Of a DNA stretch of 64,000 bases, positions 7,822 through 15,505 are shown in pieces. The DNA lies in NCBI GenBank assembly GCA_902636025.1, contig CACPQG010000002.1:1-64000 (forward strand). Direction: 5' to 3'. Every line of letters begins with the position of its first letter. Positions within the stretch are counted from its first letter, which is position 1. The notes under the pieces are model-generated. The model was not told the origin of the DNA, ran no database searches, and saw only the letters and a list, made by a program, of their open reading frames with translations. Source of the DNA: an uncultured Pelagibacteraceae bacterium. GTDB taxonomy: Bacteria > Pseudomonadota > Alphaproteobacteria > Pelagibacterales > Pelagibacteraceae. The position numbers were made by a program, and so were the translations under genes.

Positions 7822-8678
7822 CTTTAAAAGATACCTTAATTGCATCATTAGTCCCAATTTTTTTAGGTTTTGGTTTTGTAATTGCTAAACCAGCAATGGA
7901 ACATTTTCCACCTATACTTTTAATGGGTTTGAGATTTACTTTTGCAGCATCAATTTTAATTTGGTGGTTTCCTATTCCTAGAGGTTATCTGAAGCAAATA
8001 TTTATAGCGTCTTTGATTGCAAATACTTTGCAGTATAGCGTTACTTACAGTGGTTTAAATTTGATCGATGCTTCTGCAGCTGTACTACTGGTTCAAACAG
8101 AAGTTCCATTTGGAGTTTTATTTGCTTACTTCATGCTTAAAGAAAAACCTACAATAAGAAGTTTAATTGGAATTGCAGTTGCATTTGTTGGTGTATACAT
8201 TTTAACAGGCTCTCCTAATTTAGAGGGAAAATTTTTAGGTATATTTCTTACAATATTAGGATCTGCTATTTGGGCATTAGGGCAAGTATTAGTAAAACCT
8301 TTAAGTAAAGAAATAAGCCCACTTACACTTGTTGCATGGTTAGCTATTTTCTCTGGACCAATATTAATTTTTTTATCATCGATCCTTGATGGTAATACGA
8401 TAAGTTATATTAAATCTGCAAACTTTAATAGTTGGGCTATTGCGTTTTATTTAGGATTTTTTATGCAACCAGTCACCTATGGGTGTTTTTATTATGTATT
8501 AAAAAATAACCCATTATATAAAGTTTTGCCCATTGTTACTATGGGAATACCTTTGACTGGTTTGTTAGCTGCAATACTTCTTCTTGGAGAAAAACCAACA
8601 ACAGAACTTTACCTTGGAGGCTTTATAATTTTAATAGGAGTAATTTTAATTCTTTATACAAAACAAAAAAGTACTTAA
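7818..8678 (+). CDS. EamA/DMT-superfamily permease
   Basis: 286 residues with about ten hydrophobic helices and the two repeated EamA halves (first ending near VYILTGSP, second with GEKPTTELYLGGFIILIGV). These inner-membrane carriers export or import amino acids and other small metabolites. The start is TTG, overlapping the TGA of the dioxygenase gene by three bases. No in-frame ATG occurs before residue 27, and the TTG start retains the first helix. Tight coupling implies a shared pathway with the dioxygenase; the carried compound cannot be read. Confidence 0.85.
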   Translation: MTLKDTLIASLVPIFLGFGFVIAKPAMEHFPPILLMGLRFTFAASILIWWFPIPRGYLKQIFIASLIANTLQYSVTYSGLNLIDASAAVLLVQTEVPFGVLFAYFMLKEKPTIRSLIGIAVAFVGVYILTGSPNLEGKFLGIFLTILGSAIWALGQVLVKPLSKEISPLTLVAWLAIFSGPILIFLSSILDGNTISYIKSANFNSWAIAFYLGFFMQPVTYGCFYYVLKNNPLYKVLPIVTMGIPLTGLLAAILLLGEKPTTELYLGGFIILIGVILILYTKQKST

Positions 8679-8695
8679 AAAAATATATTTAAAAT

Positions 8696-9403
8696 TTATC
8701 CTATTTTTCCTAAAAAAGGGATGTATTCTAATAAGTAAAAACCTATAGCTTGAAGTTGGTTTGTTATTATTAATATTCCAGTAAGGAATAAGAGAATACC
8801 ACCTGTTTTTGTTATAATATTCATTTTTTGCTTAATATTTTTTGAAATAAGAAGAAATTTTTGAATAGCATAACCTGCTAAAATGAATGGAATGGCTAAT
8901 CCTAGAGAATAAAAAGTTAGAAGCATAATTCCCTCATAAATATTTTCGGTTGTTGATGCCAAAATCAAAATAGATCCAAGAATTGGACCTATACAAGGTG
9001 TCCAACCAAATGCAAAAGCCATGCCTACTAAAAATGAACTAAGTACATTACTACTTTTCTCTGCATCTAATCTTTTTTCATAGTTCAAGAAATTTAGATT
9101 AAAAACTCCCAAGATATGAAGAGAGAAAATAATAATTATCAGTCCTGCAATAATTCTTAGTGGGAAAGAGTTCTTCAATAAAATCTTTCCTAAAAATGTT
9201 GCTGATGCTCCAAATATAATAAAGACAACTGAAAAACCTAGGGTAAATAAAATGATTGGTAATAAATTTACATTTTTACTTTTTAATAAATTCTCTAAAG
9301 TGGAACCTGATATATAAGATATATAACCTGGTATGAGTGGTAATACACATGGAGATAAAAAGCTTATTAATCCAGCACCAAATGCAATAAAAATTTCTGT
9401 CAT
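8696..9403 (-). CDS. ccdA: CcdA/DsbD-family cytochrome c biogenesis protein
   Basis: 235 residues with six hydrophobic helices. The two redox cysteines of the family sit in FLSPCVLPLIPGY (helix 1) and FGWTPCIGPILG (helix 4). The protein passes electrons from cytoplasmic thioredoxin across the inner membrane to periplasmic thiols for haem attachment to cytochrome c. There is no DsbD-type periplasmic domain, so it is the short CcdA form. It starts 1 base after the ppc stop and is probably co-transcribed with ppc. Confidence 0.92.
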   Translation of the reverse strand: MTEIFIAFGAGLISFLSPCVLPLIPGYISYISGSTLENLLKSKNVNLLPIILFTLGFSVVFIIFGASATFLGKILLKNSFPLRIIAGLIIIIFSLHILGVFNLNFLNYEKRLDAEKSSNVLSSFLVGMAFAFGWTPCIGPILGSILILASTTENIYEGIMLLTFYSLGLAIPFILAGYAIQKFLLISKNIKQKMNIITKTGGILLFLTGILIITNQLQAIGFYLLEYIPFLGKIG

Positions 9404-9404
9404 T

Positions 9405-12095
9405 TTATCCTGAATTTTTCATCGCTGCAGCAATACCAGCAATTGAAGTCATCATTGCATCATCTAAATACTTTCTATGCTTTTTCTGTAATCCTTTTTT
9501 AGATAATTTTTTCATTACAACAGCTTGCAAAATATTGAGAACTTCAGTGTAAATATTTCTTACAATAACTGATGATCTAAACTTTTTCCTTTGATTAATA
9601 ATTTCTGTTGGAGTTATAAATTGATTTATTTTTTTGATATTATCGAATTGTAATCTTAATTTATCACCAACTTTTTTTAGTTTAGCATCTGCTAATCCTT
9701 GTTCGTAAACCTCTGAAATTTCAGGATCAACTTTTGAAATAACCATGTCTAAAATGTCCATTGTTGAATTAAAGAAAGGCCAATTCCTTTCCATATCGAC
9801 TAATATAGATTTAAATTTTTTAACTGAGGAGTATTTTAATGCCTCACCTGTTCCAAGCCATGCTGGTAACATTAATCTTATTTGTGTCCAAGCAAAAACC
9901 CATGGTATTGCTCTAAGACCTTTAATGTTGTCGACATTCTTTCTTTTAGAAGGTCTAGATCCTATTGATAATTTTCCAAGCGCAAGATGTGGTGTTACAG
10001 TTTTAAAGTATCTTATGAAATCTGTATTTTCTCTAATATTTTTTCTGTAAGATCTTGTTGAGATTTGTGTCATGTCCTCAATTAAGTTTCTCCAACTTTC
10101 TTTTGGTTTTGGTGGTGGATTTAGCGTTGCTTGCATGACTGCACCGATATAACTACAAAGATTATATTTTGCTATAGGTTCATAGCCATATTTTTGTTGT
10201 ATCATTTCACCTTGATCAGTAATTCTAATTTTACCATTTACGGATCCTGGAGGTTGAGATCTAAGAGTGGATTGAATTGGACCACCTCCTCTTCCAGCAG
10301 ATCCTCCTCTACCATGAAAAAATGTAAGATCTATTTTATATTTTTTTCCTAACTTAACTATTTCCTCTTGAAGTTTATATTGGTGCCAACTGGCAGAAAG
10401 CTTTCCAGCATCTTTACTTGAATCTGAATATCCAATCATTATTTCGTGATTATTTTTTATTAATTTTCTGTACCAGATTAATGAAAATAAATTTTCCATT
10501 ATCGATTTTGCATTTTTTAAGTCGTCTAAAGTTTCAAATAATGGGACTACTCTTAATCTTTTATTAATATTTGCTTCTTTTTGTAAAAAAGAAACAGCTA
10601 AAATATCAGATGCTGACGATGTCATCGAAATTATATATGCACCTAAACATTCCTCAGGTTGATCAGCTAGGATCTTAAAAGTAGACCAAACTTCAAGATT
10701 TTCTCTATTCTTAAATTTAAAGTTTTTGATGATTTTTTTATTTGTTTTTAAATGTTTTGATAAAAAATTTATTCTCTGCTTTTCTGTCCATTTATAATAG
10801 TCAGCTTTGTATTTCTTTTTGACAAACTCATAAAGTAGTTGTGAGTGTCTTGATGATTCCTGTCTAATATCTAGTCTAGCAAGATTAATACCAAAACATT
10901 TAGCTCTTCTCATTAAATCTAAAAGCTCACCACTAGCTATATTTTCGTTTTGATTACTTTCAAGAGAATCTCGCACTACCCTTAAGGGTTTTAAGATTTC
11001 TTCTCTTGAGAATAATAGTTTATTTTGATCTAGTGGTTTATGTCTAACGAGATGATTTTCTATCGCTCTATGCGTCAATCTCATTTTATCCCTAAGAGGT
11101 CTTAGAAAGACTCTATATGGCTCGAATGTTTTACCTGTGACTTTAAGAATTTTGTTGGAACATTTTTCCATTGAAAAAGATCTAATTAGCTTTGTTAATT
11201 CTTTTTCATATAATTTTGCAGCTTCCCATCGTGATAATAAAATTACTTCTTTGGTAATTGAGGAGGTTACATTGGGATTTCCGTCTCTATCTCCACCCAT
11301 CCAAGATCCAAATTGAATAGGATTAAAATTTTTTGGTAAGTTTTTACCCATATTTTTTAGAAAAATTCCATTTAACCTTCTGTAAACTTTAGGAATTGTT
11401 TCCCACAAGCTATCTTCTATTACTGCAAGCCCCCATCTAGCTTCGTCAGTTGGGCTAGGTCTAAATCTTTTTAGATCATCAGTGTTCCAAATAATTGTAA
11501 ATTCATCATAGAGTTTTTTATCTAAAAGTTTTACTTTCGAAGGATAATGTTTAAGCAGTTCGCGTTGTTCCATAATCTCAGTTATTTTATGATACTTTTG
11601 TATTAATGTTCTTCTTTTTACTTCAGTTGGATGAGCAGTTAACACAATTCCAATATCTAAATTTTTTGCAATATTATAAATTTTATTATTTGAAACTTTT
11701 CTGGATTTAAAAAGATTTTCAAATATTTCTTCTATAAAAATATATTTATGTTCATCTTTTATTTTGGAATTTTCAAATTCGTCTAATTTTCTAGATGAGT
11801 CTAATGACTCTGTCAAATTTACAAAATTCATAAAATGGGTAAACGCTCTGGATAATTTAAAAATATTTATAGGACTTAATTTATTTATTTCAGATATAAT
11901 TATTTTAAATCTTTTTTTATTATTAATATTTTTGACGTTTGCTTTTGATAGAAGTCTAATTTTTTCAACTAAATTAAAAAAGTTTTGCCCCTCTTGTTTT
12001 CTTATTACTCTTCCAAGTATATCCCCTAAATACCTGGCGTCATCTCTTTGTGATTTGGTTGGAATACCTTCGTAATATAAATCTCTTTTAAGCAT
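9405..12095 (-). CDS. ppc: Phosphoenolpyruvate carboxylase
   Basis: 896 residues, normal for the bacterial enzyme. Landmarks: catalytic His155 in VLTAHPTEVKRRT, GSWMGGDRDGNP at 263-274, GYSDSSKDAG at 555-564, and the flexible loop FHGRGGSAGRGGGP at 593-606. The C-terminus ends in KNSG, close to the conserved NTG terminus. It fixes bicarbonate onto PEP to make oxaloacetate and refills the TCA cycle, a cytoplasmic anaplerotic step. The start overlaps the end of the fumarylacetoacetase-family gene by 8 bases, so ppc and ccdA appear to belong to the minus-strand unit that begins with the aldehyde dehydrogenase. Confidence 0.97.
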   Translation of the reverse strand: MLKRDLYYEGIPTKSQRDDARYLGDILGRVIRKQEGQNFFNLVEKIRLLSKANVKNINNKKRFKIIISEINKLSPINIFKLSRAFTHFMNFVNLTESLDSSRKLDEFENSKIKDEHKYIFIEEIFENLFKSRKVSNNKIYNIAKNLDIGIVLTAHPTEVKRRTLIQKYHKITEIMEQRELLKHYPSKVKLLDKKLYDEFTIIWNTDDLKRFRPSPTDEARWGLAVIEDSLWETIPKVYRRLNGIFLKNMGKNLPKNFNPIQFGSWMGGDRDGNPNVTSSITKEVILLSRWEAAKLYEKELTKLIRSFSMEKCSNKILKVTGKTFEPYRVFLRPLRDKMRLTHRAIENHLVRHKPLDQNKLLFSREEILKPLRVVRDSLESNQNENIASGELLDLMRRAKCFGINLARLDIRQESSRHSQLLYEFVKKKYKADYYKWTEKQRINFLSKHLKTNKKIIKNFKFKNRENLEVWSTFKILADQPEECLGAYIISMTSSASDILAVSFLQKEANINKRLRVVPLFETLDDLKNAKSIMENLFSLIWYRKLIKNNHEIMIGYSDSSKDAGKLSASWHQYKLQEEIVKLGKKYKIDLTFFHGRGGSAGRGGGPIQSTLRSQPPGSVNGKIRITDQGEMIQQKYGYEPIAKYNLCSYIGAVMQATLNPPPKPKESWRNLIEDMTQISTRSYRKNIRENTDFIRYFKTVTPHLALGKLSIGSRPSKRKNVDNIKGLRAIPWVFAWTQIRLMLPAWLGTGEALKYSSVKKFKSILVDMERNWPFFNSTMDILDMVISKVDPEISEVYEQGLADAKLKKVGDKLRLQFDNIKKINQFITPTEIINQRKKFRSSVIVRNIYTEVLNILQAVVMKKLSKKGLQKKHRKYLDDAMMTSIAGIAAAMKNSG

Positions 12096-12936
12096 TGTTA
12101 TTTACAACTTTATGCGTTTGTTCTCCTAAGTGATCTATTCCAAGCTTAACAGTTTCACCACCTAATAAAAATTTAGAAGGGTTTCTATTTTCTCCAACAC
12201 CTGGTGGTGTTCCTGTGCAACATATATCACCTGGGTATAAGGTCATGCAGTGGCTCATATAAGATACTAGTTGGTTTATATTAAAAATCATTTGATTTGT
12301 ATTTCCAGTTTGCATTCTTTCTCCATCTACATCTAAATACATATTTAAATTATGAACATCTGAAATTTCATCTTTTGTTAGTATATAAGGGCCAATAGGA
12401 CCAAAAGTGTCAAAACCTTTTCCTTTATCCCACGAGCCGCCTTTATTCTTTTGAAAGTTTCTTTCGCTTACATCGTTTACCAGAAAAAAACCTAAAACAT
12501 AATTTAACGCATCTTTTTCACTTACATAAGAACATTTCTTTCCTATTACAAAACCTAATTCAACTTCCCAGTCTGTATGATTAGAATTTTTTGGAATTAC
12601 AATATCGTCATTAGGTCCAGATACGCTGTTGGTGAATTTAGAAAATATTATAGGCTCTTTTGGAATGGGCATATTTTGTTCTATTGCATGATCTTTAAAA
12701 TTTAAACCTATTCCAATAAATTTAGAAGGTTTATTAACACAAGCGCCAATCCTTTGATTTTTTTCTAATATAGGTAAATCTTCAGGTTTTATATTATTTA
12801 ATTTTTTTAAGGTCTCGAAATTTAAATTATCTGAATTAAAATCTTTGATAACAGAAGATACGTCTCTATAATTATTATCTTTATCAACTATAATTGGTTT
12901 TTCCTTACTTGAATTTCCAATTCTTGCTAGTTTCAT
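12088..12936 (-). CDS. Fumarylacetoacetate hydrolase (FAH)-family protein
   Basis: Start taken at ATG 12936, giving MKLARIGNSS and 282 residues; a longer open frame upstream is occupied by the 41-residue gene. The FAH core is clear: IGIGLNFKDHA, the metal-ligand segment HTDWEVELGFVIGK, FFLVNDVSERNFQ, KGFDTFGPIGPY, and CCTGTPPGVG. FAH-family enzymes hydrolyse or decarboxylate beta-diketo or 2-oxo acids such as oxopent-4-ene-dioates, acylpyruvates or ureidoglycolate. The start codon overlaps the stop of the small gene (ATGA). Placement behind a semialdehyde-type dehydrogenase suggests catabolism of an organic acid; the exact substrate is not evident. Confidence 0.88.
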   Translation of the reverse strand: MKLARIGNSSKEKPIIVDKDNNYRDVSSVIKDFNSDNLNFETLKKLNNIKPEDLPILEKNQRIGACVNKPSKFIGIGLNFKDHAIEQNMPIPKEPIIFSKFTNSVSGPNDDIVIPKNSNHTDWEVELGFVIGKKCSYVSEKDALNYVLGFFLVNDVSERNFQKNKGGSWDKGKGFDTFGPIGPYILTKDEISDVHNLNMYLDVDGERMQTGNTNQMIFNINQLVSYMSHCMTLYPGDICCTGTPPGVGENRNPSKFLLGGETVKLGIDHLGEQTHKVVNNNA

Positions 12937-13058
12937 TTTAAAAATACGATTAAAAGTAATATTACCCAAACTGCACCATAGTAAAATGGCATCATCTTTT
13001 TCCAAGACGATAAAGCTTTTGCAGCAGTTTTAATCTCTTTTTTTTTGACTTTTCCCAT
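12933..13058 (-). CDS. Small single-pass membrane protein, 41 residues, in ALDH-FAH operon
   Basis: A short ORF read directly from the sequence. It begins MGKVKKKEIKTAAKALSSWK and ends in a hydrophobic stretch (FYYGAVWVILLLIVFLK). The layout is a basic cytoplasmic N-terminus followed by one membrane helix. Its ATG follows the dehydrogenase TAA with no gap and AAAGGA lies 3 bases before that ATG; its TGA overlaps the ATG of the FAH gene. This double coupling fills the spacer exactly and argues strongly that it is translated. No family was recognised. It could anchor or help one of the neighbouring enzymes, or belong to a cryptic transporter. Confidence 0.65.
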   Translation of the reverse strand: MGKVKKKEIKTAAKALSSWKKMMPFYYGAVWVILLLIVFLK

Positions 13059-14501
13059 TTATCCTTTCAACCCAAGATGAGTATACTTTACATTCAAATA
13101 ATCCTTAATTGCCATAGAGCCGCCTTCTCTCCCATAACCTGATTGTTTTATACCACCAAATGGTGCCTCAGCTAAAGCAACCAAGGGAGTATTTACGGCA
13201 ACTGTGCCTGCTTCCATTAATTCTGAGGCTCTATGAGCCTTATCCATTGAATTTGTACAAATATAACTTGATAAGCCTAATTCATGATTGTTCGCTCGTT
13301 CAATAACTTCTTCAAAACTTTTAAATGATAACATAGGAACTAATGGTGCAAAAGGCTCTACTTTCATAATGGTATAATCGTCTTTTATATTATCAAAGAT
13401 TGTAGGTTCATAATAAAATCCTTTATTAAATCCTTTTGGTCTTTTTCCACCAAGTAAAACTTTAGCACCTTCCTTTTTAGTAGTTTCTACTAACTCCTCA
13501 ACCTCATTTAATCTTTTCTTGGTAGTTAAAGGTCCTAAATTAACAGAGGGATCCATGCCATCACCTATTTTTAATTTTTTTGTCTTTTCTACAAATAAAT
13601 TTATAAATTCATCTTTTTTATTTTCTTGTATGTAAAATCTGCTTGGAGATATACATACTTGACCATTATTTCTAAATTTAGCTGCAACAGCCATATCAGC
13701 TGCTTTTTTAATATCTGCATCATCAAAAACTATAAATGGAGAATGTCCACTCAACTCCATAGTTACTCTTTGAACTTTATCTGCAGCCTGTTTGAGAATT
13801 AATTTTCCTACTCTGGACGAACCTGTAATTGATATTTTTTTTATAATATCTGAAGATATTAGTTGGGAGGCTATACTTGGAGGATCACCAGAAAGTAAAT
13901 TTACAACACCGGCCGGAACGCCACTCTCTCTACATATATCTACTAGTTCCATCACTGTGCCTGGTGTTATAACATCAGGTTTAATTATTACAGAACATCC
14001 GGCAGCTAAAGCAGTAGAAATTTTTCTAGATGATAAGACTAAAGGAAAATTCCAAGGTGATAATGCTGCTACAACTCCGACAGGTTGGTAATAAACATGT
14101 ACTCTTGTGCCTTTAGATCTACTTTCTACAGTTTGACCATAAATTCTTTTTGTTTCCTCTGCATTCCATTCAAAAATATCAGCTGATCCATTAACTTCAC
14201 CTTTTGCCTCTACAATTGGTTTTCCCATTTCAAGAGTCATCCATTTTGCTAAAATATCTTGCTTCTCTCTCATCTTGTCAGCAATTTTTCTTATGATGTA
14301 AGATCTCTCCCATGGTGATGTATTTTTCCAAATCTCCAATCCTTTTTGAGCAGACTTAAGAGCTTTTTCTACATCCTCTTTAGTTGCTTTTGAAGCATGA
14401 CCAATAATTTCTTCATTTGCAGGATTAATTACTTCGTATGTTTGTTTGTCTGAGGACTGTTGCCATTTTCCATCGATGAATTGTCCAAATTTGCTATACA
14501 T
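13059..14501 (-). CDS. NAD(P)-dependent aldehyde dehydrogenase, succinate-semialdehyde dehydrogenase-like
   Basis: 480 residues from ATG 14501 (MYSKFGQFIDGKW). The upstream in-frame extension is rejected as it has no ALDH homology and crosses the divergent promoter. Motifs: SPWNFP at 149-154, coenzyme loop ITGSSRVG near 225, general base Glu249 in MELSGHSP and nucleophile Cys283 in NNGQVCISPSRF. The usual LGG after the Glu reads LSG. The enzyme oxidises an aldehyde or semialdehyde to the acid in the cytoplasm. It heads an operon with the 41-residue protein and the FAH protein. The substrate is inferred only at family level. Confidence 0.88.
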   Translation of the reverse strand: MYSKFGQFIDGKWQQSSDKQTYEVINPANEEIIGHASKATKEDVEKALKSAQKGLEIWKNTSPWERSYIIRKIADKMREKQDILAKWMTLEMGKPIVEAKGEVNGSADIFEWNAEETKRIYGQTVESRSKGTRVHVYYQPVGVVAALSPWNFPLVLSSRKISTALAAGCSVIIKPDVITPGTVMELVDICRESGVPAGVVNLLSGDPPSIASQLISSDIIKKISITGSSRVGKLILKQAADKVQRVTMELSGHSPFIVFDDADIKKAADMAVAAKFRNNGQVCISPSRFYIQENKKDEFINLFVEKTKKLKIGDGMDPSVNLGPLTTKKRLNEVEELVETTKKEGAKVLLGGKRPKGFNKGFYYEPTIFDNIKDDYTIMKVEPFAPLVPMLSFKSFEEVIERANNHELGLSSYICTNSMDKAHRASELMEAGTVAVNTPLVALAEAPFGGIKQSGYGREGGSMAIKDYLNVKYTHLGLKG

Positions 14502-14570
14502 AATTTTTAATTTATGATTTATTAGTGGTCTATTAATCTTGAATATATCTATAAATAAGTAAAAAATAAA

Positions 14571-15422
14571 GTGTCTAAGTCTTTCCCTCTTCTGTTTATA
14601 CTTCTTTGGTCTTCTGCTTTTATAACAACCCTTCCAATTGTTCAAAATAGTGATCCATTTTCTGCATTAACATTTAGATTTTTCTTAGTAGCTATTTGTT
14701 TTTTTATATATTCAATTTACAAAAAAACTAAAATATCAGTTAATAGCAAAGACCTAGTTAATTCTTTGGGCACTGGTATTTTGTTTCATGGACTTTACCT
14801 AGGTGGAGTTTTTTACTCAATATATATAGGTTTTCCGACAAGTCTAACCGCACTTATAGTTACTATGCAGCCAATTTTAACTAATTTACTAGCAGGTTAT
14901 TTTTTAAAAGAAAAAGTCTCATTTTATCAATGGTTAGGAGTTTTATTAGGGTTCACGGGTGCAGTAATGGTGCTAGGATTTGATATTGGAAAATCTTTAC
15001 CGATCGAAGGTGTTATTTCTTCACTTGTTGCTTTAATTGCAATTACAACATCAACAATTTGGCAAAAAAAAATAAGCAATAATATTCCTTTATCTGTAAA
15101 TAACATGTATCAAGCAGTTGGTGCAGTTTTATTTCATTTATTAATCATTATTTTTATATTTAAAGATCCTTTTATAAATTTGAATACAGATTTTTTATTA
15201 GCAATGAGTCATCAAGTATTTCTTGTATCTTTAGGAGCATTTTCTATTTTGATGTACCTAATAAAAAATAATTCTGCGAGCAAAACTGTATCATTATTTT
15301 TTTTAATACCAGTGGTTACAGCATTGATGGCTTGGATATTTTTAGGTGAAGAATTGATGAAAATAGATATTGCTGGTTTTATAATCGCATCTACAGGTGT
15401 ATTTATTTCAACAAGAAAATAA
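14571..15422 (+). CDS. EamA/DMT-superfamily permease
   Basis: 283 residues with about ten hydrophobic helices in two EamA repeats; MSKSFPLLFILLWSSAFI is the typical first helix. It starts with GTG. The gene is divergent from the aldehyde dehydrogenase, with 69 bases between them that must hold both promoters. That suggests a metabolite exporter or importer linked to the dehydrogenase substrate, but this is inference from position. It differs in sequence from the other two DMT genes in the window, so these are not recent duplicates. Confidence 0.85.
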   Translation: MSKSFPLLFILLWSSAFITTLPIVQNSDPFSALTFRFFLVAICFFIYSIYKKTKISVNSKDLVNSLGTGILFHGLYLGGVFYSIYIGFPTSLTALIVTMQPILTNLLAGYFLKEKVSFYQWLGVLLGFTGAVMVLGFDIGKSLPIEGVISSLVALIAITTSTIWQKKISNNIPLSVNNMYQAVGAVLFHLLIIIFIFKDPFINLNTDFLLAMSHQVFLVSLGAFSILMYLIKNNSASKTVSLFFLIPVVTALMAWIFLGEELMKIDIAGFIIASTGVFISTRK

Positions 15423-15505
15423 ATATTTAAGCAATAATTTGATGAGACATTTTATTTATTAATTTTCTCGTATTTATGTTAGATTTATATAAAAAGGAGA
15501 AACGT

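Follow-up and report, generated by a model that had tools for sequence, protein, structure and literature searches.

Does the place of a very small gene within a tightly packed run of genes reveal what its product does? The question is raised by an open reading frame, here given the working name x, on the minus strand of a 64,000-nucleotide stretch of DNA (the window), where it lies between the genes for an aldehyde dehydrogenase (ALDH) and a FAH-family hydrolase (FAH). The first-pass annotation of this DNA took x to be a real small membrane protein that is locked into an operon. All 80 named relatives belong to the Pelagibacteraceae, nearly all of them uncultured isolates, which assigns the window to SAR11. 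SAR11 cells, whose genomes are streamlined, rank with the most abundant in the ocean.

The locus and the predicted protein

The tightly packed minus-strand run in the window reads ALDH-x-FAH-PEPC-CcdA (Table 1). ALDH ends in AAA GGA TAA and the ATG of x occupies the very next base, leaving a gap of zero; 41 codons on, the TGA of x shares bases with the FAH ATG in a 4-bp overlap (ATGA). The exact filling of the gap between the two enzyme genes, as described in the first-pass annotation, was thus confirmed on the minus strand, and the AAAGGA reported ahead of the ATG is indeed there: it consists of the last two ALDH codons, lies 3 nt 5' of the x ATG and forms a putative ribosome-binding stretch. 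A spacing of 3 nt is short for a Shine-Dalgarno site. The 25 of 44 NCBIfam models listed for ALDH all score below their cut-offs, and the NCBIfam model nearest to FAH, 2,4-didehydro-3-deoxy-L-rhamnonate hydrolase, also falls below its cut-off.

Table 1. Features of the minus-strand run around x, from its first gene to its last (window coordinates)
Feature	Position	Strand	Basis or remark
Aldehyde dehydrogenase ALDH (PF00171), first gene of run	13059..14501	-	Pfam
x: 41-aa single-pass membrane protein MGKVKKKEIKTAAKALSSWKKMMPFYYGAVWVILLLIVFLK	12933..13058, stop codon included	-	Conservation, selection, AlphaFold2
FAH-family hydrolase (PF01557)	12088..12936	-	Pfam; ATG overlaps TGA of x
Phosphoenolpyruvate carboxylase (PEPC)	9405..12095	-	Overlaps end of FAH by 8 bp
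CcdA/DsbD-type membrane protein (PF02683), last gene of run	8696..9403	-	Pfam

FAH and PEPC together (9405-12936) make up a variable segment that separates x (or ALDH) from CcdA and is present in the window and missing from the ALDH-x-CcdA lineages (L073-L077, L204-L206); in sister lineages CcdA directly follows x or ALDH. In L235, a locus without x, FAH starts 4 bases past the ALDH stop, and by eye a ribosome-binding stretch within the last ALDH codons could serve FAH. With x in place, that stretch (13059-13067) precedes x and, again by eye, FAH is left with the ATGA overlap (12933-12936), through which its translation would probably be coupled to that of x.

Seven lysines fall within the first 20 residues of x, which has one acidic residue and, by hydropathy, a single hydrophobic stretch at its C terminus. 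AlphaFold2, given an alignment of 25 type-A sequences (the type to which the x of the window belongs, see below), predicts one helix over residues 2-40 with a mean pLDDT of 83.6, in keeping with the basic N terminus and single helix read from this sequence at first pass. A pair of tyrosines (YY) is shared by all 21 diverse members compared. Under the positive-inside rule the basic end stays cytoplasmic, and the N-terminal lysines followed by a hydrophobic C-terminal stretch suggest an N-in, C-out topology.

Scans of Pfam (window protein and 10 type-B members), NCBIfam (window protein) and the PDB (profiles) returned best E values of 0.04-1, none credible, and no match above a curated cut-off in Pfam or NCBIfam; known families, the CydX type included, were rejected for x on this ground. 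No Rfam family matched within window positions 8500-15500, a scan in which only known RNA families would show, and an RNA element at x was likewise set aside.

Coding capacity and selection

Relatives were gathered as 80 named Pelagibacteraceae loci kept out of 100 found. In a search that favours intact copies, x is open from ATG to stop in all 80; 12 share the ALDH-x-FAH layout of the window, with x intact at 41 aa and in nine distinct DNA versions. Among these nine, the variable columns are split 4/1/21 among codon positions 1, 2 and 3, and pN/pS in the frame of x is 0.056; in these loci the final 300 codons of ALDH have a value of 0.049, and FAH has one of 0.117. Reading the two remaining forward frames yields 1.09 and 1.30. 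On the reverse strand, values of 1.19 and 0.15 come from two of the frames, and the third is without any synonymous change; the value of 0.15 is expected because synonymous positions in the frame concerned coincide with third positions of x. Three other neighbourhood groups yield pN/pS values for x of 0.108, 0.168 and 0.158 (L077 and L108 stand outside all four groups). The comparison of synonymous with non-synonymous change that had been proposed as a check is therefore strongly positive, and x is under purifying selection of a strength close to that on ALDH. Stop codons and frameshifts across relatives, named in the first-pass annotation as what would speak against the ORF, were found in none of the 80 named loci and in none of 47 strong type-A matches, the searches favouring intact copies. 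That x is a real conserved gene is as good as certain, and the proposal of a real small membrane protein is borne out by the intact reading frames, the codon-position pattern and the low pN/pS.

Two sequence types of one gene

A second sequence type, type B, was first seen as weak matches of x to short ORFs in other genomes, from which a second alignment was built. The two types represent a single gene, as the match between their profiles, a type-B search of the window's genome, a common syntenic slot and their mutual exclusivity together indicate. Aligned with hhalign, the two profiles match with a probability of 95.6% and a score of 37.7, whereas 200 shuffles of columns within the N-terminal part and within the helix part gave a mean of 10.7 (sd 2.5) and a maximum of 21.7. 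Against the profile of B2, a second small membrane protein introduced below, the two x profiles reach probabilities of only 2.7% and 0.5%. When the window's genome was searched with a type-B sequence, allowing E values up to 10, a single match came up, which is x (E 2.7e-4), and the weak type-A profile matches in genomes G072 and G206 fall on their type-B loci. One slot, bounded by a divergent Peptidase_Mx1-like gene and by the agmatinase-like gene, is occupied by type A in two loci (L213, L216) and by type B in two others (L219, L015); compared with L216, the agmatinase of the type-B loci is 82-83% identical and the other neighbour 39-42%.

The search for x covered 397 genomes of the order and 26 chosen genomes; the sets of order genomes searched for type A, for type B and for B2 appear to be identical. 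Among the 397, strong matches number 47 for type A (E <= 2.2e-13) and 187 for type B (E <= 1.2e-10), the type-B count leaving out nine weak matches in type-A genomes and genome G190. There is one strong x match per genome, and none of the 397 genomes carries both types, an exclusivity of which clade structure can produce part; hypergeometric figures for it were set aside for that reason. Position and exclusivity across genomes can thus recover orthology where a sequence of 40 residues is weak by itself.

Changes of address

In the 80 named loci x is preceded by ALDH in 26 and by a FadB-like gene in 54. Besides the 12 loci arranged as in the window, 14 read ALDH-x-CcdA, including L077, which has the same sequence as L205. 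Behind the FadB-like gene, x is followed by an agmatinase-like gene in 31 loci and by a second ALDH in one; in the other 22, no ORF of 90 codons follows closely on the same strand. The upstream gene is presumably FadB, a name given from its protein; the FadB-like stretch scanned (L089) holds a Pfam enoyl-CoA hydratase domain, and the agmatinase-like gene belongs to the Arginase family (Pfam, L219). Where the agmatinase-like gene follows, x is 73 aa long with an extra C-terminal tail: in L110-L140 (for example L110:3995-4213) the 73 residues counted from ATG add about 30 after the helix, and the agmatinase-like ORF downstream overlaps by 4 bp if a TTG start is used. An ALDH different from that of the window lies downstream of x in some loci, directly in L006 and L108 and one gene past the agmatinase in L110.

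Further type-A addresses are ALDH-x-PEPC (L208), another ALDH-x-FAH (L210), a place after a gene of 232 or 233 aa without identity and before either agmatinase (L209, L211) or another gene (L214, L215), and a place beside a Peptidase_Mx1-like gene (L212, L213, L216; Pfam scan on the L219 copy only). Among 39 distinct type-B genomes read, x lies behind DksA in 36 (one DksA frame is broken), behind PhyH in two and before agmatinase in one; this count leaves out L018 (G034, which has no type-B match) and takes L009 and L153, which come from one genome, once. Four more type-B loci add PhyH (L217), CarB (L218), agmatinase (L219) and DksA (L220). For the type-B neighbours, Pfam identified a single representative of DksA, of PhyH and of agmatinase, and CarB as well; three loci were matched by tblastn with a DksA protein, and the remaining neighbours were assigned by eye from their ends or beginnings.

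Sites without x are also found: ALDH and FAH are joined directly in L235 and L241, and ALDH and CcdA in L232, L236 and L242. The genomes of these five empty sites carry x elsewhere in three cases (G081, G067, G262); in the other two (G063, G144) no x was found. Of 28 genomes chosen because x is elsewhere or was not found, 24 have the ALDH gene. The end of ALDH can be read in 23 of these (L255 runs off the end of its contig), and x follows it in none, five showing the empty joins and 18 then having other genes. In a tree built from 35 chosen ALDH proteins, 12 of them with x behind, the label needs four changes, at least three of which are forced by well-supported branches, although recombination may have disturbed this tree; G349, with x behind ALDH, and G262, with x elsewhere, are sisters on it (support 97/87). 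x has changed address repeatedly, and a single copy is kept where it is present.

The search for x between ALDH and FAH in related genomes, proposed at first pass as a check, finds it there in the 12 loci given above; other loci place x elsewhere. The description of x as locked into its operon does not survive the five direct joins and the many other neighbours. The function of x cannot be read from its neighbourhood, since the neighbours change among lineages.

As to the means of movement, no repeats were found at the borders of x. Carriage by phage was rejected, no relative of x having been confirmed in viral contigs among 65 and 5 pattern matches, and homologous exchange of the flanks is possible. 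A search of phage DNA with ALDH-x-FAH gave two matches only, of 117 bases, 74% like ALDH and outside x, in the unannotated Listeria phage records OR846789.1 and OR849105.1.

A second small membrane protein

Directly downstream of x, and mostly overlapping it by 4 bp (ATGA), 38 of the 39 distinct type-B genomes read have an ORF of 31-34 aa for a second tiny membrane protein, here called B2, which overall measures 31-42 aa and has a glutamate in its hydrophobic part (type-B loci L009-L017, L019 and L141-L170; type-A genomes L179-L188). B2 carries the motif IELSG[HY]GI, which widens to IE[LI]SG[HYN]GI over 16 varied members; invariant in these 16 are M, I, E, S, G, G and I, the last six inside the motif. 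Ten members of B2 searched against Pfam and NCBIfam, and B2 against the PDB, gave no family or structure match.

B2 occurs in 268 of the 397 genomes of the order, 228 from the genus of the window and 40 from three other genera, with one match per genome except for one genome with two. In 289 genomes of the class it was found once, in a genome of the same genus. Of the 234 genomes with x, 218 have B2 (39/47 of type A, 179/187 of type B). Within the genus of the window, 218 genomes have both genes, 16 x only, 10 B2 only, and at least 13 neither, a lower bound as genomes without a match are listed in part. The 16 with x only may be incomplete assemblies; one of them is the window's own assembly, which is 83% complete and has no match to B2. 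The 40 genomes of other genera that have B2 show no strong match to x. As each gene occurs without the other, the pair is not obligatory. Four genomes of the genus that consist of a single contig (G012, G063, G066, G070) have no strong match to x or B2, and the two may have been lost together in some genomes of the genus; with at least 13 genomes, these four among them, missing both by the profiles used, x is not essential to the genus.

In the ten type-A genomes read, B2 stands apart from x, flanked by an ArnT-like GT-C gene on one side and a GT2 gene on the other (Pfam families PMT_2 and Glycos_transf_2, one locus scanned); other neighbours of B2 are tRNA-Leu (in three of the five g8 loci scanned: L193, L194, L197), a sigma factor (L190) and glutathione peroxidase (L198). 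Near full-length matches to both glycosyltransferases remain in seven of 13 genomes without x and B2 (G012, G063, G066, G070, G159, G179, G181), and these enzymes were therefore rejected as an obligatory partner. The other six do not keep such matches to both, G168 having a piece of one. Of 13 genomes with x, 11 match both genes well (one gene is in broken pieces in G079, and G004 has neither), no more than a weak trend with the presence of x.

Discussion

x is a gene that is selected about as strongly as the enzyme beside it and whose neighbours change. Because SAR11 cells are so abundant and their genomes streamlined, a gene of 40 codons under selection of enzyme strength should matter to the cell. 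Its protein, usually of 37-45 aa, would begin with a basic, cytoplasmic helix that probably lies on the membrane, after which aromatic residues (YY, usually W) would mark the boundary to a single membrane helix that reaches nearly to the C terminus. It would not work specifically with the neighbouring enzymes; instead, with B2, it would serve a larger membrane complex whose genes lie at another place, either as a small accessory subunit or as a regulator. Such an accessory role, in contact with B2, is the most likely one. That x is an N-in/C-out accessory subunit or regulator of this kind is a reading we adopt tentatively, the balance standing close to even and slightly against it. More doubtful, yet worth stating, is the fuller proposal that x and B2 make up a two-part membrane module of the Pelagibacteraceae, whose two helices, about 40 and 34 residues long, interact in the service of a membrane complex, and that the module is nomadic, with one copy of each gene, selection keeping the module and not its address.

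A different reading, less probable but still a serious contender, has x and B2 as a stand-alone module of two peptides, for instance one regulating membrane physiology, that does without a large partner and is of a small size that eases relocation. The close linkage of B2 to x in type-B genomes and their co-occurrence fit this, as do the several addresses at which B2 too is found (the GT-C gene in ten type-A genomes, tRNA-Leu, sigma factor, glutathione peroxidase) and the lack of a family or structure match in the databases scanned. The separation of the two genes in the ten type-A genomes read and the occurrence of B2 in other genera without a strong match to x argue against it.

A role for x as dedicated partner of ALDH, of the FAH enzyme or of both, or as their membrane anchor, is improbable. 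The zero gap and the 4-bp overlap invite that view, ALDH precedes x in about a third of the named loci (26/80), and a different ALDH lies downstream of x in a few others. Such a partner would be expected to keep a constant neighbourhood, but x stands behind the FadB-like gene in most named loci and behind DksA in nearly all type-B genomes read, and ALDH and FAH are joined without it in L235 and L241. The many neighbours across the genus leave no evidence that x works with either enzyme.

Still less probable is a peptide of the type I toxin or holin kind. Such peptides resemble x in size, charge and their single hydrophobic helix, but x has one strong match per genome, is under purifying selection as strong as that on ALDH and sits inside runs of metabolic genes with no Rfam match around it, and neither relatives in viral contigs could be confirmed nor repeats at its borders found. 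A type I toxin would have an antisense RNA antitoxin at its locus, of which the Rfam scan would show only one from a known family. Hardly credible is the notion that the ORF is untranslated and its conservation marks a DNA or RNA signal, for instance one coupling the translation of FAH, whose start lies inside the end of x without, by eye, an obvious ribosome-binding site of its own: the 4/1/21 pattern, the pN/pS of 0.056, conservation at the protein level in unrelated neighbourhoods and the Rfam result all speak against it.

No account of the x/B2 family was present among the literature matches listed, and within the scope searched (Pfam, NCBIfam, PDB and literature) the family of x and its roaming appear to be undescribed. 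The general kind, a small single-pass membrane protein, is already known. A global small-protein catalogue such as GMSC (PMC11364881) may hold x and B2 as unnamed clusters.

With small single-pass accessory proteins of membranes, x shares purifying selection on a short ORF, one hydrophobic helix and a basic N terminus. The known accessory subunits and regulators CydX, AcrZ, KdpF and MgtS are about 30-50 aa long, span the membrane once and are often missed by gene finders; x is similarly short and has one helix, but it differs from them in having no sequence match above a Pfam cut-off (window protein and 10 type-B members). It also differs from a subunit encoded beside its complex in that it does not keep its neighbours, and for a gene as tiny as this one, operon position can mislead about function. 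In Wilhelm et al. 2007 (PMC2217521), SAR11 gene order is reported to match in 96% of cases, with rearrangements concentrated at predicted operon boundaries, and it is against this conservation that the roaming of x stands out. x has taken up many addresses within one genus and sits between tightly packed genes. If the proposal of a nomadic module is true, genes have moved between tight operons in a lineage known for its conserved gene order.
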